Virus record (IMG/VR): IMGVR_UViG_3300048034_000287
Coordinates: 1-28,243 of that record
Length of the DNA: 28,243 nucleotides
From: a virus
Direction: 5' to 3' (one strand)
Made by a program: the position numbers and the translations under genes. The notes under the pieces were generated by a model. It did not search any database, was not told the origin of the DNA, and was given only the letters and a program-made list of their open reading frames with translations. This document shows positions 699 to 28,243 of the stretch, piece after piece. Position 1 is the stretch's first letter, and each line of letters begins with the position of its first letter.

Positions 699-3308
699 AT
701 GAGCGTTACCGCACTTACCCGCTTTATTTTAGAGGGCGGTAAAAAGATTATTGGGGATATTGACCCTTTACCCGGCGCTCCGGGGAGGGCAAACATTCCA
801 GAGCAAGGCGCTACTTTTATCGGTCAAAACCCTGCCATCATGCGAAGCGCCGAGGAGTACGCGGAACGCTCCGGCATACCGTTGCGTAACCCTACCGAGT
901 ATAAAAGGATAGACCGTCCCTTTGCCGAGATGACTGCGGACTACTATGACCGTATGCCACACAACCCCAACGACTACCGAACCAAGCAGGCATACGACGC
1001 GCTTGGGAGAGAGACAGAGGCTCAGTTCGAGCAGATGCTGCGAGACGGTGTGAAGCCGTACCTGTTTTCTGACAAAGATCCGTACCCGAATTCTCCTTAT
1101 CAAGCGCTGCAAGACATCTACGAGAACCAACGCCTCGGTGTCTTCAGCACACGAGCGGGTTTTGGCAGCGATGATAGCTTCGATCCTACTGGTAACCCGC
1201 TGCTGCAAGAGATGGATTACCAGATCGATGGTCAGCCCATCTTTTTGAACGACGCATTCCGAGCAGTCCACGACTACTACGGCCACGGCAAGCACGGTTT
1301 TGGATTCCGAGCCGGTGGTGAGGAGAACGCATTCCAAGCGCACAGCGGAATGTTTAGCGACTTGGCAAGACAAGCCGCAGCGTCTGAGACACGGGGGCAG
1401 AATTCTCTGCTAAACTACGGCCCGTATGGCGACAGCAACAGAACAGCCAAACTGGAAGACACTGTCTTTGCAGATCAAAAGACCGGGCTGTTGCCAAACA
1501 TCGTTTCAACTGGCAGGACACCCATCGCTGATGAACGAAGACGACGAATTGATGCAGATGGCGCATCTGGACTTCGAGGTAAACTTGAGGGCGCAATCAA
1601 TCCAGATGGGATTGTTGAGGCAGTCCACTACGGCAACAGGGAGTTCGACTACCTCGACCCAAGCCAGTATGGAAAGGGGTTGTCTGGACGGACTGTCTCT
1701 GAAAGAAATATGGCAGCGACGCCAGAATTCTATGACCGAACCTTCGCCGGATTAAACACCACCGACAACCCCTATCGTCGAGAGCAGGGGATTGGCCCAG
1801 TAGAGAACACCGTGCAGCTACCTGTTGAGCAGGTGTACGACATCCTCGCAGACCCGGACAACATCAAGGGTGCTGTTGGAAACTCGCTAGACCCCTACTC
1901 AAGATACACCGCGCTGACCAAGAAGATATACGACGCAGGCTATTCTGCCGTCTTCCAAGACCACCCGCAGATGGGCAAGATCCTGTCTATTGTTGACCCG
2001 CTGAAGACCGGCAAGATACTCGCCGCCGTGCCTGTTGCTGCGCTTGGGACAAAGGCCGCTATTGGCGCTGGCTTGACAATGGCCGCGCTGGCACCGCAAG
2101 AGTCACAAGCTGGATTGCGAGCGTTCCACGGTTCGCCGTTTAGGTTTGACAGTTTTAGCACCGACCAGATCGGCACGGGCGAAGGCAATCAAGCGTATGG
2201 TCGGGGGCTTTACTTTGCGGAACGAGAAGAAACTGCACAGAGCTATGAAGACGCATTGAGTAAATCGGGAATGCACTACGATGGCGTTCCCATCTCAGAT
2301 TTACCTTTAGCCAAAAGAAGCGCTATCGCTAGGCTAAGTGGTAGCGTTGCAACACAAGTGGACGGTGCGGAGGCTGCTGTAGCTCCTATGGCAGAAAAAA
2401 TGAAGGACGAGATAACCTTTTACCGTGACCTTTATAAACAGCTTGAACAACAGGGATCAGATAAAGCAGAAATAGCTCATATAAGGAAAATAGCGCAGCA
2501 AAGCGAAGACGTTCTGGAAGAGCTGCAAAAGCTCGACACCTCAAAGATGCGTAACACCTCTGGCGCTATGTATGAAGTTGATCTGGATGTTACAGACGAT
2601 GATCTCCTTAACTTCGACGCGCCAATGAACCAGCAACCAGCGAAGATCAGAGAAGCCTTTGCCAGCCTCATCGACCCAATGGAATCAGACGCGCCCGGAG
2701 AGATGCGCGGCATGGATTTACTAAGAGACTTGAGCAACAAAAAAGTCGGGGATGATTACCAGTACAATGGCGTTGAGGCCGTAGAGGCTTTGATGGCTGC
2801 GGGTATCAAAGGAGTCAAGTACGCAGACGCTCAGACCCGATTCTCGGCAGGGCCGAAGACAAGCAACTACGTCATATTTGATGACAAACTGATTACTATC
2901 ATGCGCCAGTATGGCGTGCCTTTAGCTGTGGCTGCCCAGATGGTTGCACCAGAAGAAGCGCAGGCAAGCCCACGCACAGGCAGAACGCCAGCGGAGCCGG
3001 GCGCAGCTAAAGAGTTTGGAGCTGGTCTGTTGAGCGCAGGAATGGATTACATAGACGGCATGAGACCCACTGTTCCGTATGATCCTTACGGCGCTATGCA
3101 AGGCACACAGCTTTACGATGATGTGCAATCCGGGATGACCACTGAGCAGTCTCTGCCGCGTGAGCAACAGGCTACTTCCACCTACAGCAATCCGTTCCTA
3201 AGAGGGATTCTGGAAGAGGAGTACATGCAAGACCGGCAAAAAGCTGGACGCGCACGTTCCGCTGGAAACTTAGCAGGCAACACTGCTCTGTTGTTTTCAC
3301 CACTATGA
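699..3308 (+). CDS. Large polyvalent protein with ADP-ribosyltransferase-like domain, 869 aa
   Basis: The ATG follows the previous stop by one base and has a GAGGA-type site upstream. The protein is modular. Residues about 184-245 hold a conserved-looking block with H191-D-Y-Y-G-H-G and a GEENAFQAH segment, of a type seen in phage polyvalent proteins. Residues about 385-440 form a small alpha/beta-looking block. Residues 443-470 are an Ala-rich hydrophobic stretch. Residues about 473-735 resemble an ADP-ribosyltransferase fold of the polyvalent class: FHG at 476-478, then GRGLYFAE at 501-508, later GIKGVKYAD and NYVIFDD. A second hydrophobic stretch lies near 738-750, and the tail is Pro/Gln-rich. 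Proteins of this class are thought to be packaged and injected with phage DNA, where an ADP-ribosyltransferase could modify host proteins. The activity and target here are inferred. The ATG of the next gene overlaps the stop (ATGA). Confidence 0.75.
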   Translation: MSVTALTRFILEGGKKIIGDIDPLPGAPGRANIPEQGATFIGQNPAIMRSAEEYAERSGIPLRNPTEYKRIDRPFAEMTADYYDRMPHNPNDYRTKQAYDALGRETEAQFEQMLRDGVKPYLFSDKDPYPNSPYQALQDIYENQRLGVFSTRAGFGSDDSFDPTGNPLLQEMDYQIDGQPIFLNDAFRAVHDYYGHGKHGFGFRAGGEENAFQAHSGMFSDLARQAAASETRGQNSLLNYGPYGDSNRTAKLEDTVFADQKTGLLPNIVSTGRTPIADERRRRIDADGASGLRGKLEGAINPDGIVEAVHYGNREFDYLDPSQYGKGLSGRTVSERNMAATPEFYDRTFAGLNTTDNPYRREQGIGPVENTVQLPVEQVYDILADPDNIKGAVGNSLDPYSRYTALTKKIYDAGYSAVFQDHPQMGKILSIVDPLKTGKILAAVPVAALGTKAAIGAGLTMAALAPQESQAGLRAFHGSPFRFDSFSTDQIGTGEGNQAYGRGLYFAEREETAQSYEDALSKSGMHYDGVPISDLPLAKRSAIARLSGSVATQVDGAEAAVAPMAEKMKDEITFYRDLYKQLEQQGSDKAEIAHIRKIAQQSEDVLEELQKLDTSKMRNTSGAMYEVDLDVTDDDLLNFDAPMNQQPAKIREAFASLIDPMESDAPGEMRGMDLLRDLSNKKVGDDYQYNGVEAVEALMAAGIKGVKYADAQTRFSAGPKTSNYVIFDDKLITIMRQYGVPLAVAAQMVAPEEAQASPRTGRTPAEPGAAKEFGAGLLSAGMDYIDGMRPTVPYDPYGAMQGTQLYDDVQSGMTTEQSLPREQQATSTYSNPFLRGILEEEYMQDRQKAGRARSAGNLAGNTALLFSPL

Positions 3309-3748
3309 TCATCGAAGCGGTAGCAGCGGTTACGGCGGCGTGCAAGACGCTAGAGATGGCGGCTGGCGCGGCCAACAACATCGAGTCCCTTGGTGCCTTT
3401 ATAGGCCGCATGGGCGCTGCCGAGTTTGATCTGCAAAAAGCCAAGAACTCTACCCGAACCATGAGCGAGGCCGAGGCCGCCAAGGCGGTGATGGCAGAGG
3501 AGATGGTTCGTCAGTCCCGTCAAAGGATGAAGGATTTATTCCTGTCCCTGAACCGAACTGACCTCTGGGATGACATGCAGCAGAAGATGGCCGAGGCTAG
3601 AAAGAACCGTCAGGAAGAGGTCAAGAGACAAGAAGCTCTGGCAAGGAAAAAGAAAAAGCAACTGATTGAGATACTGATAGCCATCGCCATATGCCTAGGG
3701 CTAGTCCCGTTGGCTATTGGCTTGGTGCTTTGGTGGGCAACAAGCTAG
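3305..3748 (+). CDS. Coiled-coil protein with C-terminal membrane anchor, 147 aa
   Basis: The start overlaps the preceding stop by four bases (ATGA), implying translational coupling to the polyvalent protein. Residues 1-45 are Ala/Gly-rich and weakly hydrophobic. Residues 50-120 are highly charged and helical, with a basic end (KRQEALARKKKKQ). Residues about 121-145 are a clear transmembrane helix (IEILIAIAICLGLVPLAIGLVLWW) preceded by Lys residues, which predicts an inner-membrane protein with a large cytoplasmic N-terminus. The position at the end of the virion module would fit an injection, membrane-remodelling or lysis accessory role, but it does not look like a classical holin or spanin. 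Function unknown. Confidence 0.8.
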   Translation: MIIEAVAAVTAACKTLEMAAGAANNIESLGAFIGRMGAAEFDLQKAKNSTRTMSEAEAAKAVMAEEMVRQSRQRMKDLFLSLNRTDLWDDMQQKMAEARKNRQEEVKRQEALARKKKKQLIEILIAIAICLGLVPLAIGLVLWWATS

Positions 3749-4311: not shown

Positions 4312-4338
4312 ACCCTTGTCAACACACGCTTGTCAACG
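4312..4338. repeat. Pair of direct repeats upstream of the integrase
   Basis: CTTGTCAAC occurs at 4315-4323 and 4329-4337, inside 13-base units that match at 11 positions and are 14 bases apart. Each contains TTGTCAA, a small dyad. They lie between the candidate attP core and the integrase start, so they could be arm-type integrase or excisionase binding sites, or operators for integrase transcription. Both roles are inferred. Confidence 0.5.
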
Positions 4339-4375
4339 TATGCTCACGGTCAAACTGTACCAGAGGGTGTACCAA

Positions 4376-5353
4376 ATGGGTGTGATACAAAAACGTGGCG
4401 ACAGCTACCGGGTTCTAATACGCAAGGCTGGCATGCCAGCAATCTCCAAGACCTTTCCCAAGAAGGCACTGGCCCAGTCGTGGATGACTGAGACCGAGGC
4501 CGACATAGCCAAGGGCAACTACCGCGAAGACGAGATGAACTTCGGCAGGTGCGTCGATAAGTACATCGACGAGTACGGCCCTTTTGGTGACACCAAGCAG
4601 GGCGTGCTGCGGCTGGTGCAGCGCAACATAGGCCACCACCGCCTCAAAGACCTCAAGTCCTCGACACTGATCAGCTACGCCAACGGCAGGGCCAAGGGCG
4701 CGCAGGCCAGCACGGTGCAACAGGACATGATCTACATCGGCGTAGTCCTCAAGGCCGCCGAGGCAGCGTGGGACTGCAAGCCCAAGATCGACGAGTACGA
4801 GAAGGCCATGCACTTCCTGAAGTCCAAGCAGGTTATTGCCGAGTCCAACGAGCGCGAGCGCCGCGTGACAGATGCTGAGATCGATCTGATCTTGCAGCAT
4901 GCAGACACCCGCTTGCCGCTGGCAGACCTGATAAGGTTCAGTGTGCTGACGGCTATGCGGCGCGGCGAGGTTTTGAGCATGACATGGGACGAGCTGGGCG
5001 ACGAGGGCCGCAGCATTGGACTGTGGCGCAAGCACCCAGAAGGCAAGCGATACTCGCGTGTGCCACTGTTGCAGGAGGCCGCCGACATCATCCAGCGCCA
5101 GCCGCGCACCGATGCCCGGATCTTCCCGTTCAATGGCGAGACCGTCAGCGCAGCATTCCAGCGGTCACGCAACCGCATTGGCCTCGATGTCCGCTGGCAC
5201 GACCTGCGTCACGAGGGTTGCAGCCGGTTGTTCGAGCTAGGTCTCGATGCCATGACGGTGGCGTTGTTCTCGGGCCACCGGGACATCAACATGCTGCGCC
5301 GATACACGCACCTGAATGCTACTCAGGTTTTGCAAAGACTTGGCTCTCAATGA
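4376..5353 (+). CDS. int: Tyrosine recombinase / phage integrase, 325 aa
   Basis: This integrase would join attP with a bacterial attB site to establish lysogeny. The chosen ATG has an AGAGGG site 9 bases upstream; an in-frame TTG at 4316 has no ribosome binding site. Residues 1-50 resemble an Arm-type DNA-binding domain, and about 52-150 a core-binding SAM-like domain. The catalytic domain spans about 165-320 and shows the expected residues: R195 in TAMRRGEVL, K224, H275-x-x-R278 in WHDLRHEG, H301 in SGHRD and the nucleophile Y310 in RRYTHL. All catalytic positions are present, so the enzyme is probably active. Its 3' end overlaps the convergent DUF3310 gene by 35 bases. The candidate attP lies just upstream. 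Confidence 0.95.
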   Translation: MGVIQKRGDSYRVLIRKAGMPAISKTFPKKALAQSWMTETEADIAKGNYREDEMNFGRCVDKYIDEYGPFGDTKQGVLRLVQRNIGHHRLKDLKSSTLISYANGRAKGAQASTVQQDMIYIGVVLKAAEAAWDCKPKIDEYEKAMHFLKSKQVIAESNERERRVTDAEIDLILQHADTRLPLADLIRFSVLTAMRRGEVLSMTWDELGDEGRSIGLWRKHPEGKRYSRVPLLQEAADIIQRQPRTDARIFPFNGETVSAAFQRSRNRIGLDVRWHDLRHEGCSRLFELGLDAMTVALFSGHRDINMLRRYTHLNATQVLQRLGSQ

Positions 5354-10544: not shown

Positions 10545-10940
10545 TTAATCGTCTATTGCGTCGAAGCCATCCGTTGCTTCCAGTGCTGGTCTCCGATCGG
10601 ATACCGGCACCAAAGTCGGCCTGCCTTCTGGTTTGACGATGAGCGCGTTAACGTCATCGCATTCTTTCCCCAGCATGGCGATCGCCCTGCTCGGAGAAAT
10701 TGGTTTCCGGCTCATCACCGGCTCGTTAGTCAGCAGAGTCATGGCGCGAATAGCTGCCTCATCGTCTGACCACTTTCTGTTGGTGCGGCTGGTCACGAGC
10801 TTGTAGCCCTCAATGGGTACGCCAGAGAGCGCCAGCTTCTCTGCGTGCTTTGCGACGGAGTCGCACCAGCTCTTAATTGTGGCGAGGTGCGGCAGCAGCC
10901 CTGCGATCTCCTCGTGGCTCATGGTCTGTGCGTCTCTCAC
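10545..10940 (-). CDS. C-terminal part of a split DUF2800 protein, 131 aa
   Basis: The sequence MSHEEIAGLLPHLATIKSWCDSVAKHAEKLALSG, then GYKLVTSRTNRKWSDDEAA and PTLVPVSDRRPALEA, corresponds to the C-terminal region of full-length DUF2800 proteins. Here it is a separate frame. It starts with GTG overlapping the stop of the nuclease half (GTGA at 10940-10937), so the two halves are probably translated together. The -1 frame relationship could reflect an ancestral frameshift that was kept, or a sequence error; no slippery heptamer is visible. The product probably acts with the nuclease half. Confidence 0.8.
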   Translation of the reverse strand: MRDAQTMSHEEIAGLLPHLATIKSWCDSVAKHAEKLALSGVPIEGYKLVTSRTNRKWSDDEAAIRAMTLLTNEPVMSRKPISPSRAIAMLGKECDDVNALIVKPEGRPTLVPVSDRRPALEATDGFDAIDD

Positions 10941-11671
10941 TTAAATCCCTCCCCCAACTTGTCAAAAACGTGCTCCGCAAGTGCCCGGCAGGTCGGAGCG
11001 GCCTTGCAGTACCGACATTGCGATTCGCCGGGATTGAACGGTGGCTTGCTGCTCAAAGCTGCCTCCGCTGCCGGTGCCAGCACCTCAGCGCCCCACTTCA
11101 GTAGATCCCGGTGCCGCATGGTGTGGGTGTCGATGTGCCCCAGCCGGGGCTGGACAATCGTCATATGTATGGTGTCTAGCTGGGCATCGAAGCCGTGCTT
11201 GTCGAAGACGCCGAGGGCGTAGCACTTGAGCTGGTCGCAGTCGGCATCGACTTGATTGCGTCCGAACTTCGCGTCCACCACCCAAGCCTCGCCTTCCTTG
11301 ATCGACAAGAAGTCTGCGGTGCCGAAGCCGCCCTCTGCCCACATGGAGTAATCCAAGCGTTGCTCAATGTGTGTCCGCGTTTGCGGCAGTGATCGACAGT
11401 GATTGACATACACCCTCGCCATGTTCGCTTGCTCTAAGTTGATGACATAGCCATTGAAGATCTCGCCCATCAGCTCGTGCGGCTCCAGCCCTTTGTGCAG
11501 GCAGGTCTCTGACAGTTCGTGTAAGGCCGTGCCTTCTTCAGCGGCTGGGCTGCTCTCATCTGGCAGACCTTCCTGCGCCTTCACGCTCGCAGGGCAGGCG
11601 ATCCATCGGTGTGCAGAGCTGGCACTGAGCTTCGCGTGCGCTGGCCCTAGATCAATCTCGTACTGCTTCAA
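10937..11671 (-). CDS. DUF2800 nuclease half (Cas4/RecB-like PD-(D/E)xK), 244 aa
   Basis: I chose the TTG at 11671-11669 because a strong AGGGAGG site lies 5 bases upstream; a longer frame from a TTG at 11722 would run through the operator. The protein starts MKQYEIDLGPAHAKLSASSAHRWIACPAS. The nuclease core shows a helix with EEGTALHELSE, D120 in GTADFL and D133-x-K135 in VVDAKFG. Four cysteines, C26, C219, C222 and C228, are placed as in the iron-sulfur clusters of Cas4 and AddB nucleases. It probably processes DNA ends in phage recombination or replication. First gene of the leftward operon; operator 11692-11706 lies in its leader. Confidence 0.85.
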   Translation of the reverse strand: MKQYEIDLGPAHAKLSASSAHRWIACPASVKAQEGLPDESSPAAEEGTALHELSETCLHKGLEPHELMGEIFNGYVINLEQANMARVYVNHCRSLPQTRTHIEQRLDYSMWAEGGFGTADFLSIKEGEAWVVDAKFGRNQVDADCDQLKCYALGVFDKHGFDAQLDTIHMTIVQPRLGHIDTHTMRHRDLLKWGAEVLAPAAEAALSSKPPFNPGESQCRYCKAAPTCRALAEHVFDKLGEGFK

Positions 11672-11691
11672 CTCAACCTCCCTAGTGATAT

Positions 11692-11706
11692 ACAACCTGC
11701 TGTTGT
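11692..11706. promoter_or_regulatory. Operator ACAAC-N5-GTTGT before the leftward replication operon
   Basis: A perfect dyad extended by one more pair on each side (TACAAC and GTTGTA). It lies 20 bases before the DUF2800 start codon and downstream of the predicted leftward promoter. Bound repressor here would block the operon that encodes the replication proteins. A degenerate copy (ACAAC-N5-ATTGC, 11719-11733) lies 27 bases away, the same spacing as the pair beside the repressor gene. Confidence 0.7.
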
Positions 11707-11741
11707 AAGATGAACTCGACAACGATCAATTGCAAATTATG

Positions 11742-18247: not shown

Positions 18248-18349
18248 CGCCCGATACGGCATGGGGCCAATGTCTAGCTGTGACGGGGATTAGTCAGTGA
18301 TTGGTACAGTTAACGGTACACCCATCCTTCGGGCCTGGGAAAAAGTCTC

Positions 18350-18496
18350 ATGAAATCAATGACTTACGAATCTCAAAGCCGTCAAGGTTCTGGGGGGCGA
18401 TCCGGGTCAGACCGGCTTCGCAAATCCGGGACTCCGCTACGGGGCGGCTACGGGGGGTATATCGAGTTACACACAGAGGGCGGTTTGTGGCAGTAA
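18350..18496 (+). CDS. Candidate hidden small gene, Gly/Arg-rich, 48 aa
   Basis: A complete frame from ATG to TAA lies between the two terminase genes. It overlaps the start of the large subunit by 10 bases and otherwise fills the gap. The product begins MKSMTYESQSRQGSGGRSGS and ends GGYGGYIELHTEGGLWQ. It is rich in Gly, Arg and Ser, with an aromatic C-terminus. A GGGA sequence lies about 10 bases upstream. An automated caller would mask it by extending the terminase frame back to a TTG at 18301. Third-codon base use does not decide between the frames, so this stays a candidate. Confidence 0.4.
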   Translation: MKSMTYESQSRQGSGGRSGSDRLRKSGTPLRGGYGGYIELHTEGGLWQ

Positions 18497-19974
18497 GCAC
18501 TTCAAAAAAAGCGGTTCGCAAAAAAGGGACTCCTGAGCTGACAGAAGAGCAGCAGGAAAAAGCGGCGGAGATAGCCAAGGCCATCGCTGTCGTAAAGGAG
18601 CACAAGCGAACCCACCGGCTAGACCACTTCAAGCCTTACCCGTGGCAGAAAAAGTTCTACAAGTCCGGGAACGAGAACAAGCAGCGCCTGCTGATGGCGG
18701 CAAACCGAGTCGGCAAGACCGCATCAATGGCGGTAGAGGTCGCGTATCACCTAACCGGCGAGTACCCGGAGTGGTGGAACGGAATCCGTTTCAAAAAACC
18801 AACCTCGATCTGGTGCCTAGGGGTGTCAGGAGAGCAGCTCCGCGATGTTGTGGTAAAGGAGCTGTTTGGTACCTATCTAGGCGACGGCAAATTCGACGGC
18901 AACGGCCTGATCCGGCAAGACCAGACCTATCAGGTCACACCGGCCATGGGTACGCCACGCCTCCCGCGTGATGTTGCGGTACGTCACGCCACCGGCAACA
19001 CGTCGCTCGTCAGCTTCAAGTCCTACACGCAGGGCCAGCACGTCTTGATGGGATCATCACAGGACTTTATCTGGATCGACGAGGAGCCAGTAGACCCAAC
19101 GATCTACCCCCAGTGCCTGACAAGAACCGCAACCGGCAACGGTGGTGAGGGCGGGTACGTTACGATGACATTCACGCCAGAGAACGGTGTCACTGAGCTG
19201 GTTGCCCAGTTCATGGACAACCGGCAGCAGGGTCAGCACCTCGCAAACGCGACATGGGAGGATGCGAAGCACCTAAACAAAGAGACCAAGGAGCAGCTAC
19301 TGGCTGCGATCCCGGAGTATCAGCGCGATATGCGCTCCAAGGGCATCCCGGTGCTTGGCGAGGGCATGGTATTTGCGCTCTCCGAGGAGGTGGTGAAGTG
19401 CGATCCCTTCGAGATACCGGCCCACTACAAAAAGCTGGCGGCCATCGACTTTGGGATAACCCACCCCACCTGCGTGGTCTGGACGGCCTACAACCCAGAC
19501 AACGACTGCATCTTTGTGTACGACATATACAAAAAAGAGGGCGAGATACCGGCGGTACACGCCTCGGCCATCAAGTCACGAGGGAAAACCATCCCGATGA
19601 TTTACCCCCACGACGGCGACTCCACCGAAAAAGGCTCTGGCAAGACACTGGCCGAGATGTATTTGGAGGCCGGGGTGCTGATGATCGGCAAGTTCACCAA
19701 CCCAGACGGCACCAACTATGTGGAGCCGGGGCTGATGGAGATGCTGGAGCGCTTCCGCACCGGCAGGTTGCAGGTGTTCAGCAACCTATCCCCTTGGTTC
19801 GAGGAATTTAGGCGGTATCACCGCAAGAAGGGGAAGATTCACAAGGAATTCGACGATTTGATGGACGCAACGCGCTACGCGGCCATATCGGTGACCAGAT
19901 TCGGTCAAAACAACGCAGAGCAGCAGCAACTTGGTACAAAAGAAGGATACCTGAGCAATGAATATGACTATTGA
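18487..19974 (+). CDS. Terminase large subunit, 495 aa
   Basis: The ATPase-nuclease that packages DNA into proheads. I chose the GTG at 18487, which has a GAGGG site 7-8 bases upstream and gives a length close to P22-type large terminases; the frame is open back to a TTG at 18301, but that extension looks non-coding and has no start signal. Motifs: YPWQKKFY adenine-binding region near residue 45, Walker A AANRVGKT (72-78), Walker B FIWIDEEP (D198, E199), coupling motif TFTPENG, and the RNaseH-like nuclease with D321 in AIDFGITHPT, IYPHDGD, and Asp residues near 456-460 in FDDLMDAT. All key residues are present. Its end overlaps the portal start by 17 bases. Confidence 0.95.
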   Translation: MAVSTSKKAVRKKGTPELTEEQQEKAAEIAKAIAVVKEHKRTHRLDHFKPYPWQKKFYKSGNENKQRLLMAANRVGKTASMAVEVAYHLTGEYPEWWNGIRFKKPTSIWCLGVSGEQLRDVVVKELFGTYLGDGKFDGNGLIRQDQTYQVTPAMGTPRLPRDVAVRHATGNTSLVSFKSYTQGQHVLMGSSQDFIWIDEEPVDPTIYPQCLTRTATGNGGEGGYVTMTFTPENGVTELVAQFMDNRQQGQHLANATWEDAKHLNKETKEQLLAAIPEYQRDMRSKGIPVLGEGMVFALSEEVVKCDPFEIPAHYKKLAAIDFGITHPTCVVWTAYNPDNDCIFVYDIYKKEGEIPAVHASAIKSRGKTIPMIYPHDGDSTEKGSGKTLAEMYLEAGVLMIGKFTNPDGTNYVEPGLMEMLERFRTGRLQVFSNLSPWFEEFRRYHRKKGKIHKEFDDLMDATRYAAISVTRFGQNNAEQQQLGTKEGYLSNEYDY

Positions 19975-22036
19975 CGAGCAGGAGCTGCTCTCGACACTGG
20001 AGCGAAACATCGACGCAGCCGACACCTACGCCAACAGCGAGGTAGGCGACCAGCGCGACAAGGGCCACCGATACTATTACGGCGAACCCATGGGCAACGA
20101 GACCCGTGGCCGCTCGCAGCATGTGTCCCGCGACGTGTTCGACGCCGTTGAGGCCGTAAAGGCCATGATGCTGGAGACCTTCAGCGCGGATAAGAATATC
20201 TGCCGCTTCGACCCTCAGTCGCCAGACGATGTGAACACCGCCCGGCTGGCAACCGCGTGGACTAACTACAACTTTTACCGCCAGAACAACGGCTACAAGA
20301 TCCTCGCGGACGTTATCCACGATGCGCTGGTTGCCAAGACCGGGGTGGTGAAAAGGTATTGGAAGGCAGACTACCGCTACGAGTCCGAGGAGTTTGAGCA
20401 ATTCAGCGAGAACGAGTTCAACGTCATGATGTCAGCGCCCGACGTGGAGCTGATTGAGATGATGGAAGAGTCTATCGAGGTCGTGGACGAGCAGACCGGC
20501 ACCGCCTACTCGCAGCTTGCCCTCTCTGGCACCACCCGCCGCCGCTACGACACCAGCAAGGTATGCGTCGAGACCGTGGAGCCTGAAGACTTCTTGATCA
20601 ACCCCCGAGCTAAGACGGTGCAGGACTCTGACTTCTGCTCGCACCGCATGGCGCGTACCCGAGGCGAGCTGCTGTCTGAGGGCTTCGACCCCGATGTGGT
20701 CGCCAAGCTCGACGAGGAGGACATGCTGAAGGAGGACGGCTCGATTGGCCGAGACTCCGTCGATAGCTTCCGCCACGACCGCTTCGGCTTGGATGACGCC
20801 CGTGACCGTGAGTATGTGACGCTGTACGAGAGCTACATTAAGCGCCACGACCCCGAGATCAACGAGTGCGTTTACTACAAGTGCATACACAGCCGCCGGG
20901 TGATGCTGGACATCGAGCTGGTGGCCGAGATGCCGTTCCGCACCTTCACGCCCTTCCCGTTACCTCATCGATTCTACGGCATGTCACTGGCCGACCAGCT
21001 CTGTGATCTTCAGAAGACCATGTCGAGCCTGAAGCGCGGCGTGGTCGATCACCTGATGCTGACCACCACCAGCCGCTGGGTTGCGAACCTCAGTCTAGTG
21101 AAGAACCCACGCGACCTGCTCGATAACCGGGTAGGTGCCGTGGTGGATGTGATGTCTCCCAACCCGGAGTCTGTGGTACGGCCCCTGCCCACGCCGCAGC
21201 TCAACGGCAACGTCTATACGGCGATTGAGAACTTCGAGCAGGAAAAGGAGCAACGCTCTGGATCGAGCAGGATGTCTCGCGGCATGGACTCGACGGCGAT
21301 CAGCAAGCAGAACTCAAGCGACCTGATCAACACCTTCATGAACGCCAGCAACCGGCGGATCATGGTCATGTGCCGCAACTTCGCTGAGAACTTCCTGAAG
21401 CCTCTGATGCAGGACTTATACCGGCTGGGCGTGGAGTACGAGAACGAGACTGTAATGTTACAGCTCGACGGTGCCTTCCAGCCTGCTACGCCCTCCGCGC
21501 TTGGTGACCGCACCGAGATGACCGTGGCGGTTGCCCTGACCCCGGAGGAGCAGCAGGCAGAGGCCCAGAAGCTGCTGACTCTGGACACTCAGTTCACATC
21601 CAACCCAGCCGACCCGACTGTTGGCGGCCTCTACGGCCAGCAGCAGCGCCACGCCCTGCTGTCTCGGGCCTTTGAGCTGCTGAACATCAAGGACGGCGCA
21701 TCGTTCCTGCAAGATCCAAACAGCCCAGAGTTCCAGCAGATGCAGCAGCAGCAGCAGCAGATGCAGCAGGAAATTCAGGCGCGTCAGGAGGAGATGGAGA
21801 AGTTCAACGCAGGCATGACCGCCCGGCAGGTGTCGGTGCTAGAGGGCCAGCTTGAGCTGGATGTTGTGAAGGAGCAGAACCGCATGATGCTGGAGCTTGA
21901 GAAGCAGGAGTTCACTGAGGAAGAGAAAGAGGCTCGCCTGATGCTGGACACTGAGAAGCACCTGCACGACATCGAGCGCGATCAAGCGGAGCTGGAAATA
22001 GAACGAGAACAGAAGAGGAACGTAAGCATTGGCTGA
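19958..22036 (+). CDS. Portal protein (P22-type), 692 aa
   Basis: Forms the dodecameric portal ring at the capsid vertex through which DNA passes. Length and placement directly after the large terminase match P22-like portals. N-terminal features include YYYGEPMGNETRGRSQHVSRDVFDAVEAVKAMMLETF, typical of this family; the central region has the wing and clip segments. The C-terminus (about 590-692) is a long Gln/Glu-rich coiled coil, starting with a QQMQQQQQQMQQE run encoded by near-pure CAG repeats, and may form the barrel that reaches into the capsid. The ATG at 19958 is used; a second in-frame ATG is 6 bases later. Confidence 0.93.
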   Translation: MNMTIDEQELLSTLERNIDAADTYANSEVGDQRDKGHRYYYGEPMGNETRGRSQHVSRDVFDAVEAVKAMMLETFSADKNICRFDPQSPDDVNTARLATAWTNYNFYRQNNGYKILADVIHDALVAKTGVVKRYWKADYRYESEEFEQFSENEFNVMMSAPDVELIEMMEESIEVVDEQTGTAYSQLALSGTTRRRYDTSKVCVETVEPEDFLINPRAKTVQDSDFCSHRMARTRGELLSEGFDPDVVAKLDEEDMLKEDGSIGRDSVDSFRHDRFGLDDARDREYVTLYESYIKRHDPEINECVYYKCIHSRRVMLDIELVAEMPFRTFTPFPLPHRFYGMSLADQLCDLQKTMSSLKRGVVDHLMLTTTSRWVANLSLVKNPRDLLDNRVGAVVDVMSPNPESVVRPLPTPQLNGNVYTAIENFEQEKEQRSGSSRMSRGMDSTAISKQNSSDLINTFMNASNRRIMVMCRNFAENFLKPLMQDLYRLGVEYENETVMLQLDGAFQPATPSALGDRTEMTVAVALTPEEQQAEAQKLLTLDTQFTSNPADPTVGGLYGQQQRHALLSRAFELLNIKDGASFLQDPNSPEFQQMQQQQQQMQQEIQARQEEMEKFNAGMTARQVSVLEGQLELDVVKEQNRMMLELEKQEFTEEEKEARLMLDTEKHLHDIERDQAELEIEREQKRNVSIG

Positions 22037-22232
22037 TCTATCAAGGTTCGATGACCTGCTTAACCGGGCGAAGGAGAAAAAGAAACCCAAGCCCGACATC
22101 AAGCAGGTGTTCAAAGAATTCGAGGCATACAGGGCGCAGGCGGCTGCCCCTGTAGCTGAGAAAAGTGCGGGAAGTGAAAAACCCGAAAAACCTAAAAAAC
22201 CAAAGCAACCCGAAAAGGACTTTTTAGTATGA
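22029..22232 (+). CDS. Small Lys/Pro-rich protein, 67 aa, TTG start
   Basis: The only available start is TTG at 22029, overlapping the portal's stop by 8 bases, with an AGAGGAA site about 10 bases upstream. The product MADLSRFDDLLNRAKEKKKPKP then KQVFKEFEAYRAQAAAPVAEK ends in a low-complexity EKPEKPKKPKQPEKD tail. It is probably intrinsically disordered apart from a short helix. Lying between portal and scaffold, it may be a minor head-assembly factor; this is positional inference. The next gene's ATG overlaps its stop (ATGA). Confidence 0.7.
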   Translation: MADLSRFDDLLNRAKEKKKPKPDIKQVFKEFEAYRAQAAAPVAEKSAGSEKPEKPKKPKQPEKDFLV

Positions 22233-22492
22233 GCGAAGTAGAGACAATGGAAATGCACGAACTCCAAAGCAAGGCAGACGCGGCAAGCGCGATGCTGAAC
22301 TCTGAGGTGTTCAACGAGGCGTTCCAGAGAATGAATCAGGGGATAGTTGACCAGATATTATCTACGCCAGCCGAGGCACCCGAGGAGCGCGAAAGGCTCT
22401 ACGCGATGTTTAAGGCAGGGCAAATGTTTGTGCAGCAATTTGCTACATTAATCAACAACTTAGAGTTGCGTAAACAACAAGAGGATGAGTAG
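22229..22492 (+). CDS. Hypothetical head-module protein, 87 aa
   Basis: Starts at an ATG overlapping the previous stop. The sequence MSEVETMEMHELQSKADAASAMLNSEVFNEAFQRMNQGIVDQIL then RLYAMFKAGQMFVQQFATLINNLELRKQQEDE is all-helical and acidic. Small helical proteins of this size between portal and scaffold genes are usual in podovirus-like marine phages, but their function is unknown. Confidence 0.78.
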   Translation: MSEVETMEMHELQSKADAASAMLNSEVFNEAFQRMNQGIVDQILSTPAEAPEERERLYAMFKAGQMFVQQFATLINNLELRKQQEDE

Positions 22493-22493
22493 A

Positions 22494-23456
22494 ATGGCGG
22501 AAGCTAACATTGATCCGGCAGAGCAACCCTCCCAAGACTCTTCGGAACAAGACACGATTGACAGATTGACCACGCTGTTGGAGTCCGATCTGGACGAACC
22601 AGAGGTTGAGGAGCAATCCGATCAAGAGGCCGATGAGGCCGACATAGTAGACGAGGAGTTCGAGGAAGCGCCCGAAGAGGATACCGCCGAGGCAGAGGAG
22701 GTCGAGGAAGACCCAACCGATGAAGCCGAGCAGGAGGAACCGGAAGAGCTGACGTTTGAAGTGGACGGCGAGAGCCTGACCGCCGAGGAACTGAAGCTGG
22801 GATACCTCAGACAGAGCGACTACACAAAAAAGACGCAGGCGGTAGCCGAGCAGCGGAAGGCTTTTGAAGCCCAAACCGCAGAAGCCGAGGCGACCATGAA
22901 TGCGTTGATGTCCGCCGCTGGCGCTGACATTTCGCGTTTTCAGAACGTGAACTGGGAGCAGGCAGCGATAGACAACCCTGAACAATACAAGCAGGCCAAG
23001 GCGGCCTTTGAGCAGGCACAGTCCACCTACAACTTAATTAAGGCGCAGGCGGATCAGTTCCAGACTCAGCAGCAGCAACAGACCGAGGCGGCGCAGAAAG
23101 AGGCCGCAAAAGAAAGTCTGACTGTCCTGAAGACCAATATCCCTAACTGGAATAACGATCTTTATTACAAGATCGGGGAATACGCTCAAGGTTTAGGTGT
23201 CAGCGGTGAGGAGTTCAATAAGGTCTCCGATCACCGATTGATTACCGCGCTATGGAAGGCCATGCAGTTTGATCAGGCAAAACAGGTGACGGCTAAGAAA
23301 AAAGCGAAGTCATCACCTACAAAAACTTTGTCTGGCTCCAAAGCCGACTCGACAAAGGCCGTTCAGTCCGAAAGCGCCCGTAAAACACGGGAGCGATTGA
23401 GAAAGTCCGGCACTGTTGATGACGCAGCGGCAGCCCTCTTGAACAGGATGCAATAA
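22494..23456 (+). CDS. Capsid scaffolding protein, 320 aa
   Basis: Two in-frame ATGs lie 9 bases apart (22485 and 22494). The second is preferred because GAGG is 9 bases upstream and it begins MAEANIDPAEQPSQD. Residues 1-90 are extremely acidic (runs of Glu and Asp). Residues 95-230 are Gln/Ala-rich and helical (KKTQAVAEQRKAFEAQTAEAEATMNAL, with a QQQQQ run). The C-terminus is basic (AKKKAKSSPTKTL then KTRERLRKSG). Acidic N-terminus, central coiled coil and basic C-terminus binding the capsid protein are the hallmark of podovirus scaffolds. It lies directly before the capsid gene, as expected. Confidence 0.85.
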   Translation: MAEANIDPAEQPSQDSSEQDTIDRLTTLLESDLDEPEVEEQSDQEADEADIVDEEFEEAPEEDTAEAEEVEEDPTDEAEQEEPEELTFEVDGESLTAEELKLGYLRQSDYTKKTQAVAEQRKAFEAQTAEAEATMNALMSAAGADISRFQNVNWEQAAIDNPEQYKQAKAAFEQAQSTYNLIKAQADQFQTQQQQQTEAAQKEAAKESLTVLKTNIPNWNNDLYYKIGEYAQGLGVSGEEFNKVSDHRLITALWKAMQFDQAKQVTAKKKAKSSPTKTLSGSKADSTKAVQSESARKTRERLRKSGTVDDAAAALLNRMQ

Positions 23457-23457
23457 A

Positions 23458-24357
23458 ATGCCAACAGTAAGCGGCACTCTAAAAACTTTCGATCAGGTCG
23501 GTAAGCGTGAAGACGTAGAAGACATCATCTACGATATTTCGCCTACGGACACACCCATGCTCACCAGCATCGGAACCTCTACTGCTGGGGCAACTTTGCA
23601 CCAGTGGCTGCAAGACTCTCTTGCCCCCGTAGCGACCAACGCTAACGTGGAAGGCGCGGACGCAGGCACGGCCTCTACCATCACACAGACCGTCAAGACT
23701 GCTAACACGCAGATCTTTGACAAGGTTGTGCAGGTATCAGGAACCGCCGAAGCGGTAGGCACCTATGGCCGTACAAGCGATCTGGCGTATGCCATCGCCA
23801 AGGCCGGTAAGGAAATCAAGCGCGATATCGAGCACAGCTTTGTAGGCGCTGGGCAGGCAGGAACCGCTGGTAACAGCAGCACTGCACGTCAATTGACCTC
23901 CGCTGCCAACCAGATCAGCGCGGCCACCACCAACACCGCTGGCTCGAATAGAGCACTAACGGAAGCACTCGTCCTCGACGTAGCACAAAAAGTGTACGAA
24001 AAAGGCGGCGATGCCTCTCAGATGCAGGTAACACCCTCGCACTCTGTAGTGGTTGCAGGCTTCGCTACGGCCTCTGGTCGCCAGCGAGACTTCGGCAGCA
24101 GCACGACTGTTGTGAACTCGGTAGACATCTTGGTAACGCCATTCGGAACCCTGAATGTTGTGCCTAACCGTCTGCTCGACGCCAACACGTCTCTGATCCT
24201 CGACACCGAGTATTGGTCACGCGCAGTTCTGCGACCCATGCAGACTGTTGTTTTGGCTAAGACCGGCGACAGCGATAAGCGTCAGATGCTGACTGAGCTT
24301 ACCTTGGTGTGCGAGCACGACGAGGCAAGCGGCAAGATCGACGCACTGACCGCGTAA
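23458..24357 (+). CDS. Major capsid protein, DUF5309/SU10-type, 299 aa
   Basis: The sequence MPTVSGTLKTFDQVGKREDVEDIIYDISPTDTPMLTSI is the characteristic start of DUF5309 capsid proteins, with a middle GTYGRTSDLAYAIAKAGKEIKRDIEHSFVGAGQAG and a C-terminal RPMQTVVLAKTGDSDKRQMLTELTLVCEHDEASG. It would take the HK97 fold and build the icosahedral shell. It starts one base after the scaffold stop. A two-hairpin terminator region follows, consistent with its need for high expression compared with genes downstream. Confidence 0.92.
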   Translation: MPTVSGTLKTFDQVGKREDVEDIIYDISPTDTPMLTSIGTSTAGATLHQWLQDSLAPVATNANVEGADAGTASTITQTVKTANTQIFDKVVQVSGTAEAVGTYGRTSDLAYAIAKAGKEIKRDIEHSFVGAGQAGTAGNSSTARQLTSAANQISAATTNTAGSNRALTEALVLDVAQKVYEKGGDASQMQVTPSHSVVVAGFATASGRQRDFGSSTTVVNSVDILVTPFGTLNVVPNRLLDANTSLILDTEYWSRAVLRPMQTVVLAKTGDSDKRQMLTELTLVCEHDEASGKIDALTA

Positions 24358-24360
24358 AGT

Positions 24361-24383
24361 TTGCTCATCCCTCCCCTGAGCAA
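24361..24383 (+). promoter_or_regulatory. First hairpin after the capsid gene
   Basis: TTGCTCA and TGAGCAA pair perfectly around a 9-base pyrimidine-rich loop, starting 4 bases after the capsid stop. No U-tract follows directly; it may stabilise the capsid mRNA 3' end. Confidence 0.5.
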
Positions 24384-24384
24384 C

Positions 24385-24419
24385 GGCGGCCCCTTCGGGG
24401 GTCGCCACCCTTTTCTTTT
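24385..24419 (+). terminator. UUCG-loop terminator after the capsid gene
   Basis: GGCGGCCCC (24385-24393) and GGGGTCGCC (24398-24406) form a 9-bp stem with one G-U pair, capped by the very stable TTCG loop. ACCC and a T-rich run (TTTTCTTTT, 24411-24419) follow. It would terminate or attenuate transcription between capsid and tail-connector genes. Confidence 0.85.
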
Positions 24420-24430
24420 GAGGTGGAAGA

Positions 24431-24730
24431 ATGTCTGAATTGAAATCCCACATTGTTCACGACGAGATTGAGGACAAGCTGCATGTGGCCCACACGCAGG
24501 ATATTGCCCCAATCATCGCGGACAACATCGCCCGATCTAACGAAATTGATAAGCACGCCAAGTACGGCGAAACAGAGCGCGTGGCCTCTATACCTATGGT
24601 CTTAGTAGTTCAATGGATGCAGGAGGGGATCAACGTCATGAACCCCACATACGAGGATCAGAAGAAGATCAAGCAGCGCCTGAACAGCCCGGAGTATGCG
24701 TACCTAAGAACCCGAGGCGGTAGACTATGA
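24431..24730 (+). CDS. Conserved-type small head protein, 99 aa
   Basis: The ATG follows a GAGGTGG site. The product MSELKSHIVHDEIEDKLHVAHTQDIAPIIADNIA then KYGETERVASIPMVLVVQWMQEGINVMNPTYEDQKKIKQRL and a basic end resembles short proteins encoded between the capsid and adaptor genes in marine podovirus-like phages. No enzymatic motif is visible. A decoration or connector-linked role is possible. Its stop overlaps the adaptor start (ATGA). Confidence 0.8.
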   Translation: MSELKSHIVHDEIEDKLHVAHTQDIAPIIADNIARSNEIDKHAKYGETERVASIPMVLVVQWMQEGINVMNPTYEDQKKIKQRLNSPEYAYLRTRGGRL

Positions 24731-25329
24731 GCCTATCAACCTACGACGGCCTGAAGGTCTCGGTAGCCGATTGGCTGAACCGGGAAGACCTAACCAACGT
24801 CATACCAGATTTTATCGAGCTTGCGGAGAACCGTATTTTCCATGAGCTTCGCGCCCCAGTTAACGAGAAGACTATCCTTCTAACCCTGAGCAGCGACGGC
24901 TATGCGACTTTGCCGTCGGACTTCTTGGAGGCCAAGGATCTTTTCTGGAACTACAACCCGATTTCTCGCGTAACACTTGCACAGATCCACAGCTACACCG
25001 AGCGCACAGGTGCAGCGCCAGAGGTTTTTGCCCGTGAGACGTATCGACTTCGCTTTTACCCGGTACCGACTGCCGAGGCCAGCGACGAGCTGCGGATGAT
25101 TTACTACTACGACCCCGGCAGGCTCACATCGAGCGAGACAAGCAATGTGGTGTTTGCCGCTGCCCCGGAGCTGTACCTCTACGGCACACTGGCAGAGGCG
25201 GCCCAATACCTTGGCAGCGACGGCTCTCGCTGGGAGGGTGGCTACCAGAACGCAATGGGTCGATTGATGCAGCACGCTGCGGTTGCGGAGAACGCGGGAG
25301 CGACGGCAACAGTCCAAATGGGATATTAG
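24727..25329 (+). CDS. Head-tail adaptor protein, 200 aa
   Basis: The sequence [44 protein letters not shown], then [24 protein letters not shown], and [42 protein letters not shown] has the layout of phage adaptor proteins (T7 gp11/P22 gp4-like helical bundle with an inserted beta domain) that bind the portal ring and receive the tail nozzle. Length and position fit. It overlaps the previous gene by 4 bases and is followed after one base by the tail fibre gene. Confidence 0.85.
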
Positions 25330-25330
25330 A

Positions 25331-28243
25331 ATGTCTGGATTTTTTAAGGATAACCCGCCTGCCACGCAGGTAGGTTCTGAAGACGCAACCGAGTCCACCA
25401 TCCAAGAGGACGCGGTAACCCAGACCGACACCTCTGGTGGCTTTTACCAAGGCTCCCCCGACCAGACCACCACCGATGCCTACACGGCAGATGCGCTGGC
25501 GAGCAAGAACGCCGCCGAGGCCGCCAAGGTAGCAGCCGAGGCAGCGCAGGCAGCGAGTGAGTCAGCGAAGACCGCAGCCGAGACTGCGGAAATTAACGCC
25601 GAGACTGCGGAGACGAACGCTGAGACGGCTGAGACAAACGCCGAGACTGCGGAGACGAATGCCGCAGCCAGTGAGAGCGCGGCAGCGACATCTGCCACAA
25701 ACGCCGCTGGGTCTGCTACCACTGCCACCACCAAGGCCAGCGAGGCCGCAACTTCGGCAACGAATGCGGCTACTAGCGCGACATCTGCTGAAACAGCCAA
25801 GACCGCAGCAGAGAACGCTGAGACAAACGCCGAGACGGCAGAGACCAACGCCGCATCTAGCGCATCGTCGGCATCTACCTCTGCCAGCAACGCATCGACA
25901 TCTGCTACCGCAGCATCAGGGTCTGCCAGCGCGGCGAGCACCAGCGAGACCAACGCGGCTACTTCTGCGACTAATGCTGCAACCTCAGAAACTAACGCCG
26001 CAACGTCATCGTCAAATGCGTCTACCAGCGAGACCAACGCAGCCGCATCGGCTACGTCTGCCTCCAACAGCGCCTCTACAGCCACAACAAAAGCGTCTGA
26101 GGCTGCGACTTCTGCTTCGAGCGCGGCGACATCTCTGAGCAACATAACATCGCTGTCTGCGGCAACGGGCGCGGCGGGATCTAGTGCTTCATACGACAGC
26201 AGCACTGGCGTTTTGACTGTTCCACGGGGCGACACTGGCGCAACTGGATCGCAGGGAGCTACCGGCCCACAGGGCGCTACCGGCCCACAAGGAGCCACCG
26301 GCCCTCAAGGCCCAACAGGTGCAACAGGTGCCGCTGGTGCAGATGGAGATGATGGAGCCACCGGCCCTCAAGGTGCTACCGGCCCTCAAGGTGCCACAGG
26401 GCCACAAGGCCCAGCAGGTAACGACGGCGCTGACGGCTCAACTGGCGCTACCGGCCCAGCAGGAGATACGGGAGCTACTGGCGCAACCGGCCCACAAGGA
26501 GCCACCGGGGCAACAGGTGCTACTGGCCCAGCGGGTGCTGACGGAAACGACGGAGCCACCGGCCCCCAAGGCGCTACAGGCCCACAAGGCCCGGCGGGTA
26601 ATGATGGGGCCGATGGCGCAACAGGTGCCACTGGCGCACAGGGGCCGCAAGGCCCAGCGGGTGATGACGGCGCTACGGGTGCCACTGGCGCACAAGGCCC
26701 AGCAGGCCCAACTGGGGCCACAGGAGCGCAGGGGCCAGCCGGATCTGATGGCTCACCCGACACTGCCGCAGAGGTCTTAACAAAGATAAAAACTGTGGAC
26801 GGCTCTGGGTCTGGCTTAGACGCTGATCTGTTGGATGGTCTGCATTCTACTAGCTTTGCGCCAAGCACATTTAATGTGTCAACCGGTGCGTCTACATCCG
26901 ACCCTAACTCTAGGACTGATTCACATTTTTTAACCAATAACGGTAACGCACCGTTTGGCGGCATTTTTTCACACATCCAAAACCATTGGTGGAGTACCGT
27001 CGGGGGCAATGTTGCTCAACACGCAACAACATATAACGGATCTACATCCAGATTTGCTGTCAGGCACCGATATAGCAGCACTTGGAGGTCTTGGTCTGAA
27101 GCATGGACTAACAACAATGATGGCTCAGGTTCTGGGTTAGACGCTGACTTACTTGATGGGCTTCATGCTTCTTCGTTTATGAGAGCATCGGCTGTCGCTA
27201 GTCTCGACATGAACGACTACAACATCGTTGATGTTACAAATATCCAGACTAATGGTTCAAATGCTGACGTAAAGTTCTCTGTTTGGGACGGCACCACCTA
27301 CGGCATCGGTATGACCAGCGGAGTTACGCTAGGTCACCTAAACGACTACGCCATGACGTTCTGCATGAACGATGATGCGGATAGAGGTTTCTGGTGGGGA
27401 TATAGCGGTCAGGGCAAGTCCGCAGGCGCGATGTCACTAACAACAGGCGGAAGGCTATGGGTAACTAACGATGTCACTACCCCAACCCTCCGTCTCGGTG
27501 ATGGTAACGATGGTCGTTTTTACTCAGATAATAACGGAAGAACTGCTTTCGCCGATGGCGATTTCTACATTCAAAACACTGTAGGCAACTACTATAACTA
27601 TGCTACAAATCAGTACCTTGGTGATAATAGTGGAGACAACATTTATGTCCGAGGTAATACTCTTTCTGGAGATGGGTGGTCTCTTACAGGGGCAGGTGTT
27701 TTAGACTTAAACGGCGGTCATGGCGCACTAAACATAACTAACTCGTCAATCCTTTCATCCGCCGTATCAAACTGGACGGGCAATCCCGGCGCATCAGGAA
27801 AAATTCAGTACCACTCTAACCGTTGGTACATCGTCGGTGACCAGTCATCGAACAGGATTGTGCAGTTCAGACGGGATGGTTCTGATAAGTCTTACATTGA
27901 CAACAACGGCTCTCTGATCGGCGGGGGTAACTGGTACACTGGCAACGACGGCTCAGGCTCCGGCTTAGACGCTGATACTGTTGATGGAGTTCAGGGGTCT
28001 TCACTGGTCAGAAGCGATGCCATCACATCAATGACCTCCGCTGGTATCGGTAGAAATGACCACCATCTCGGGCATCTTGTTGGCAGCTATAACAACGTAG
28101 GCGCAAACAGCACTAAAACTAATCCGATATATTCTATCGGCACGAATTATGTTCCGAGCGCGACGGCTCTTAATAACCATTATGGTATCGGGTATTCCCA
28201 CGCCAATTTTTGGGGTTCTGGGAACGGCAAGCCAAGTGGTTGG
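25331..28243 (+). CDS. Tail fibre protein, at least 971 aa (3' end outside window)
   Basis: The frame is open from the ATG at 25331 to the window edge without a stop. Domains: residues 1-50, a short unique N-terminus that should attach to the tail; about 55-280, an Ala/Asn/Thr/Ser/Glu-rich repeat (units such as AETAETN and NAATSAT), typical of trimeric coiled-coil shafts in lambda Stf-like fibres; 300-476, 59 uninterrupted Gly-X-Y triplets forming a collagen-like triple helix; from about 490, a beta-rich distal part. The motif [14 protein letters not shown] starts at residues 490, 597 and (as DADTVDG) 873, marking repeated modules. Near the end there is [17 protein letters not shown], typical of fibre tips. 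It should recognise the host surface. An intramolecular chaperone may lie beyond the edge. Confidence 0.9.
26228..26758 (+). repeat. Collagen-like Gly-X-Y repeat region
   Basis: There are 59 consecutive Gly-X-Y triplets, mostly GAT, GPQ, GPA and GND/GAD. The underlying DNA is a diverged 9-base and 18-base repeat with many GCC ACC GGC-like units. Long open frames on the opposite strand here are artefacts of this composition. Such stretches commonly expand and contract by recombination. Confidence 0.93.
26798..28006 (+). repeat. Three spaced copies of a 20-residue fibre motif
   Basis: [16 protein letters not shown]-type units occupy about 26798-26857, 27119-27178 and 27947-28006 in the tail fibre frame. 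The first two differ mainly in two residues before SF; the third is diverged ([10 protein letters not shown]). They punctuate the distal fibre and probably mark module boundaries. Confidence 0.8.

Follow-up and report, generated by a model that had tools for sequence, protein, structure and literature searches.

The window analysed here, an IMG/VR virus record 28,243 bases long, encodes a polyvalent protein of 869 aa, whose modules are joined by a "cassette" composed of a hydrophobic stretch and a characteristic octet; in many phages this junction is found again, between modules of different types. Our favored explanation, to which we give a probability of about 0.5, is that an SU10-like temperate podophage uses the gene to make a multi-effector ejection protein, in which the modules are linked by the cassette and most likely cut there. 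Cleavage and its protease are the least certain part of this explanation.

Genomic context of the polyvalent gene

The phage was typed from its genes as SU10-like. Profile matches identified the SU10-type head genes at 18301-25329 (+), namely terminase, portal (PF23899, E=4e-152), scaffold, major capsid (PF17236, E=1e-84), and adaptor (PF24175), as well as a tyrosine integrase (4316-5353, +), so we regard the phage as temperate. The polyvalent gene (699-3308, +) is an open ORF with an ATG start, and synteny with relatives places it last among the large genes of the late (ejection-protein) operon. The gene order common to three relatives (G001, G005, and G006) comprises a nozzle-like 518-aa protein, a homolog of the 460-aa ORF, an ORF of ~440-484 aa, an ORF of ~664-733 aa, an ORF of ~150-177 aa, the polyvalent gene, and the integrase; in all three the polyvalent gene is thus located among virion genes and closes the late operon. 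In the window it starts one base past the end of a 171-aa ORF (182-697, +), and its stop is overlapped by a 147-aa ORF (3305-3748, +) with a C-terminal transmembrane-like segment; both of these neighbors are syntenic in G005. The relative G001 (39,427 b, 99% to the window phage) is probably near-complete and circularly permuted, because a gene spans the ends of its record. The length of the protein in the polyvalent slot varies, from 393 aa in G005 to 743 aa in G006 and 869 aa in the window, and in G005 the module corresponding to the second ADP-ribosyltransferase (ART2), junction, and tail is a separate gene of 393 aa with its own start, beginning MSAIASVLREKLRAFHG.

The genes gp20-24 of SU10, at the end of the operon, encode virion proteins that are lost when the genome is released (PMC9509320). 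Ejection of the polyvalent protein with the genome is likely, because its gene sits where SU10 gp20-24 lie, and the fold match of ART2 to a pre-ejectosome protein, described below, also favors it. We considered the large upstream ORFs as homologs of SU10 gp20-23 and rejected this assignment, as the similarity was only weak (e.g. the 460-aa ORF vs gp22, E 0.016).

Two other loci of the window deserve mention. A DUF2800 (PD-(D/E)XK-like) nuclease at 10545-11722 (-) is spread over two overlapping ORFs, one at 10937-11722 and the other at 10545-10940; its counterpart in the relative L570 (17377-18501) is apparently one ORF of 374 aa; the difference may reflect a frameshift, a split gene, or a sequencing error. 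A long fiber gene at 25283-28243 (+), whose repeats are partly collagen-like (GxT/GPQ) and partly alanine-rich, extends beyond the end of the window; a relative's copy matches Collagen (PF01391).

Domain architecture of the polyvalent protein

A preliminary description, made from the window sequence, identified an 869-residue polyvalent protein with an HDYYGHG block, an ART-like block (FHG, GRGLYF), and two Ala-rich hydrophobic stretches ending in similar octets at domain borders. Our analysis bears out this layout: HDYYGHG starts at residue 191 and FHG at 476, and the chain is a polyvalent protein, with at least two domains of disparate kind in one phage protein. It comprises three domains, i.e. 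an N-terminal HDxxGH domain, a probable first ART-fold domain (ART1), and a HYD-type ART2. ART1, just N-terminal to the first hydrophobic stretch (~304-441), had been overlooked.

The HDxxGH domain (aa 20-271, 756-1511, +, phrog_3170) is widespread in polyvalent proteins. H191, D192, G195, H196, E208, and H215 are invariant, E230 is also conserved, and the structural model of this region is mostly confident. Its relatives in viral contigs number 80 (L327-L406) and are mostly giant polyvalent proteins of 2,000-3,500 aa from many phages. Searches with this domain yielded no family-level match in Pfam (scattered chance-level matches only), no match in NCBIfam or PDB sequences, and no convincing PDB fold. 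The conserved His and Glu residues suggest a metal site. The HD-x-x-G-H arrangement resembles the iron site of aromatic amino-acid hydroxylases; PAH was found only at a Foldseek E-value of 6, and we do not assign the domain to that family. As to the zincin motif, HDYYGH has HxxxxH spacing, and HExxH is absent from the entire 869-aa protein.

ART1 (aa 304-441, 1608-2021, +), with H310, is a probable ADP-ribosyltransferase-fold domain according to matches of its model to 6kyf (Z 6.0, the best) and ParT (Z 5.2), with the model being poor in this region. We take 6kyf to be AcrIF11, an ADP-ribosylating anti-CRISPR protein. ART1 occurs together with the HDxxGH domain in five relatives (L331-L334 and L347).

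ART2 (aa 473-741, 2115-2921, +) resembles the ART-PolyVal family and is better defined, with H477, Y505, D728, and D729 invariant among 19 diverse relatives; these residues match the H-Y-D site described for ARTs in polyvalent proteins (PMC5512222). Against Pfam PF18760 the domain scores 21.9 bits, under the 31.2 cut-off, while its homolog L094 scores 54 bits, above it. The ART2 model (mean pLDDT 72, higher in the ART core) matches PARP-type folds (tankyrase, Z 8.0) as well as MbcT (Z 7.5), and its best fold match is to residues 1418-1664 of 9k3a chain B (Z 10.3, but with an rmsd of 6.5 over 186 residues). That chain is the pre-ejectosome protein of cyanophage A4, identical to A-4L gp27 (1717 aa). 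ART2 is predicted to ADP-ribosylate a host molecule. We also observed an ART-like stretch (LYHGT...GSGTYFS) close to the C-terminus of A-4L gp27 (L568, 20116-25269, -), and a homolog of ART2 in L086 (4918-6081, +), which is gp5 of Sulfitobacter phage phiGT1, annotated as hypothetical and encoded between portal and scaffold genes.

The first hydrophobic stretch (aa 441-464, 2019-2090, +), recognized from the sequence and the model, is Ala/Gly-rich and leads into the octet APQESQAG (aa 465-472, 2091-2114, +). The second, YGVPLAVAAQMV (aa 738-749, 2910-2945, +), can likewise be called Ala-rich and hydrophobic but is short, with only ~12 residues, and precedes the octet APEEAQAS (aa 750-757, 2946-2969, +). 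Both octets fit the pattern described below and lie at domain borders: AlphaFold confidence drops under 50 for residues 434-469 and 751-819, beside the confident ART2. The C-terminal tail (aa 758-869, 2970-3305, +) is mostly disordered in the model, is conserved in L002, L003, L005, L020, L022, and L027, and ends with LLFSPL. Short hydrophobic C-termini are found in several junction-bearing proteins (window 3290-3305; L009, L010, L040, L072, L094, L128, and L156), e.g. LLFSPL, ALFSPI, FLSPI, TEFLL, MDVAL, and DVVPL, in tails that are otherwise unlike each other; a packaging signal is a possible role for them.

The junction cassette

The two octets were confirmed at the places described. Octet similarity as such is at chance level, since the protein contains 24 bare octet pairs that agree at 5 or more of their 8 residues vs 17.6 +/- 6.7 in shuffled sequences, and we therefore rejected the octet repeat alone as evidence. 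The composite of a hydrophobic stretch and P[EDQST][EDQN][AS][EQDN]A[GSA] is a different matter: the protein has two copies, a number reached in 0 of 20,000 shuffles. Because this pattern was set after the two copies had been seen, it was tested on other data. When viral contigs were scanned for codons of APEEAEA, 20 of 67 occurrences followed a hydrophobic stretch, compared with 1 of 46 for a control with scrambled codon order and identical bases. Among 1,936 ORFs, a set that includes loci fetched by the APEEAEA scan, the cassette matched 41 times vs once for the reversed-order control.

The two junctions of the window show no sign of a recent DNA duplication, because the 38-aa stretches that end in the octets share only five residues, all within the octets, and the DNA of the two octets is identical at 15 of 24 positions. 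With flanks that have nothing in common beyond the octets, we also rejected a duplicated ART-junction unit. Across 66 cases the octet codons appear in 49 different 18-nt versions; the codons are free to vary and the peptide is kept, which points to selection on the protein. In 20 dereplicated junctions (with Ala at -1 required by the pattern), Pro is found at -6 in 16 and Gly, Ala, or Ser at +1 in 19, and the 12 residues after the site carry a mean charge of +1.10, positive in 85%.

Distribution of the cassette among relatives

The cassette recurs in unrelated phage polyvalent proteins, with up to two copies per protein; two are present in each of L145, L154, L156, and L094, where they lie at the ends of modules. 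The octets are likewise kept in relatives of the window protein, as the preliminary description would require. To analyze the association between the octet and the domain arrangement, we used relatives of ART2 collected with queries not picked for the octet and clustered at 55%. A hydrophobic stretch past the last strand of ART2 is present in almost all small and mid-size relatives. An octet-type motif was found in 12 of the 20 clusters in which at least 50 residues follow, vs 2 of the 45 in which the protein stops (Fisher p=2e-6, a test that takes no account of phylogeny, by which the association is partly confounded); in 43 of the 45 clusters with a C-terminal ART, the stretch is kept without the octet. 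In giant proteins (2,000-3,500 aa) that contain the same ART, both the stretch and the octet are missing.

Relatives of ART1 exhibit the same correlation. In L332-L334 the chain stops with ART1 and a hydrophobic end, and the octet is lacking; in the window and in L331, ART1 is followed by another module and APQESQA occurs. L331 retains the whole N-ART1-APQESQA part, with the next module being DUF7178 in place of ART2, and in L128 the junction is followed by a GNAT-like module. Thus, the modules downstream of the junction differ, as exemplified by ART2, DUF7178, and the GNAT-like module in these three proteins.

Proposed mechanism and alternatives

According to the explanation that we favor, the protein would be synthesized late, packaged into the head, and enter the host together with the genome, and the conserved C-terminal tail may act as the packaging/ejection part. 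The cassette, of the form [hydrophobic 10-20 aa]-[AST]-P-[EDQ]-[EDQ]-[AS]-[EQ]-A/[GSA]-[basic leader] (the slash marks the putative cut), would let effector modules swap, and on entry it would most likely be cleaved behind the final Ala, or opened in some other way at the membrane, with the modules then working singly and one or two ARTs ADP-ribosylating a host target. Cutting at the junctions is plausible, and the A-x-A-[GSA] motif, together with the tie to a following module, suggests that it would fall behind the final Ala. As a wider proposal, put forward tentatively, the cassette could be a general processing or membrane-release signal, at which a host protease splits ejected polyproteins into effectors on entry.

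If the modules are indeed strung as interchangeable effectors on one ejected chain, the phages would possess a "plug-and-cut" system, which bears on the question of how large multi-domain proteins get out of the phage head and through the envelope and then function as individual enzymes. A conserved junction between swappable modules provides exact sites for mutation and exact expected new N-termini, and the junction signature could find injected effectors that are missed by domain libraries, such as ART1, the HDxxGH domain, and several unnamed modules found here.

Nearly as likely as cutting is that the cassette stays uncut and serves as a membrane-seeking hinge, in which a short hydrophobic segment and a PEEA helix cap act as a spacer between modules and let them unfold and pass the portal and the envelope in turn; we regard this as a serious possibility, if one short of even odds. 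It agrees with the retention of the stretch in the 43 clusters that have a C-terminal ART and no octet, and with the disorder of the junction regions in the models. Moreover, [ST]-P-E-E-A is also an ordinary sequence at the start of helices. A hinge, however, leaves unexplained both the A-x-A-[GSA] motif and the near-confinement of the octet to proteins that continue beyond it.

It is less probable, and on balance unlikely, that host signal peptidase I cuts the cassette at the inner membrane during ejection, the cassette then being an internal element akin to a signal peptide. The classic c-region of signal peptides consists of a helix breaker, A-x-A, and a small residue, and the junctions have a hydrophobic core, the helix breaker Pro at -6, A-x-A at -3/-1, and Gly, Ala, or Ser at +1. 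A host enzyme would also be needed, because no phage peptidase of the S78, ClpP, S49, or S26 families was found in four related records (two of which look near-complete and two possibly incomplete), while control genomes matched. However, the junctions break the rule of no positive charge after the site, as the basic character of the following 12 residues would normally hinder export, and Glu or Asp at -4/-5 is unusual. In addition, cleavage by this enzyme would leave ART2 in the periplasm, where NAD+ is scarce. These three points led us to disfavor signal peptidase I, and the internal position of the sites is a further argument against it.

That a phage prohead protease or zincin domain cleaves the protein prior to its packaging, a route proposed for P1 DdrB, has precedents in P1 (PMC5512222, PMC12810830) and is nevertheless improbable here, given the lack of the four peptidase families in the related records, the lack of HExxH in the protein, and the scaffold-type head genes. 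Least probable of all is the reading of the octet as a scar of module exchange, which would owe its conservation solely to domain recombination at that point. The exchange of the C-terminal module in L331 and the variable length of the protein in the polyvalent slot might suggest it, but the octet DNA is not conserved either among the 66 cases or between the two copies, which implies selection on the protein.

Comparison with known systems

The polyvalent gene of the window resembles those of the SU10 ejection proteins gp20-24 (PMC9509320) in the types of head genes that accompany it and in its place downstream of the nozzle gene, where the late operon ends. At the sequence level the polyvalent protein has no detectable homology to gp20-24 (best blastp E 0.027), and SU10 gp24 contains no junctions of the hydrophobic-octet type. 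The protein of cyanophage A4 (A-4L gp27), like the proposed ejection protein, is a virion protein, and its residues 1418-1664 provide the best fold match to ART2; it differs in its length of 1717 aa, has no sequence-level match to the window protein, and has no visible PEEAxA junction. AcrIF11 (6kyf), the best fold match of ART1, is a stand-alone protein of 137 aa, and the comparison involves an ART1 model of low confidence. phiGT1 gp5 contains a 37% identical homolog of ART2, but there the ART is C-terminal, with a short hydrophobic end bearing QAQDVQA and no module after it. ART2 shares with Tox-ART-HYD2 and ART-PolyVal (PF18760) the ART fold with His in strand 1, Tyr in strand 2, and Asp near the last strand, and differs from them in its sub-threshold Pfam score and a long helical insertion.

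Among the closest known systems are also the polyvalent proteins (Iyer et al. 2017, PMC5512222), which unite multiple enzymatic domains of unrelated kinds in a single phage polypeptide, with ART as the commonest protein-modifying one, and which are predicted to enter the host with the DNA. For these proteins processing by zincin metallopeptidases was proposed, whereas the window protein lacks HExxH. The text of that work mentions no "signal peptide", "transmembrane", or hydrophobic-octet junction, and the literature searched contained no recurrent hydrophobic-PEEAxA junction between modules. The "undescribed host-takeover system" of the preliminary description is not supported in that form, since polyvalent proteins that carry ARTs and are injected have formed a known class since 2017 (PMC5512222), and it is the junction element that we regard as the new part.
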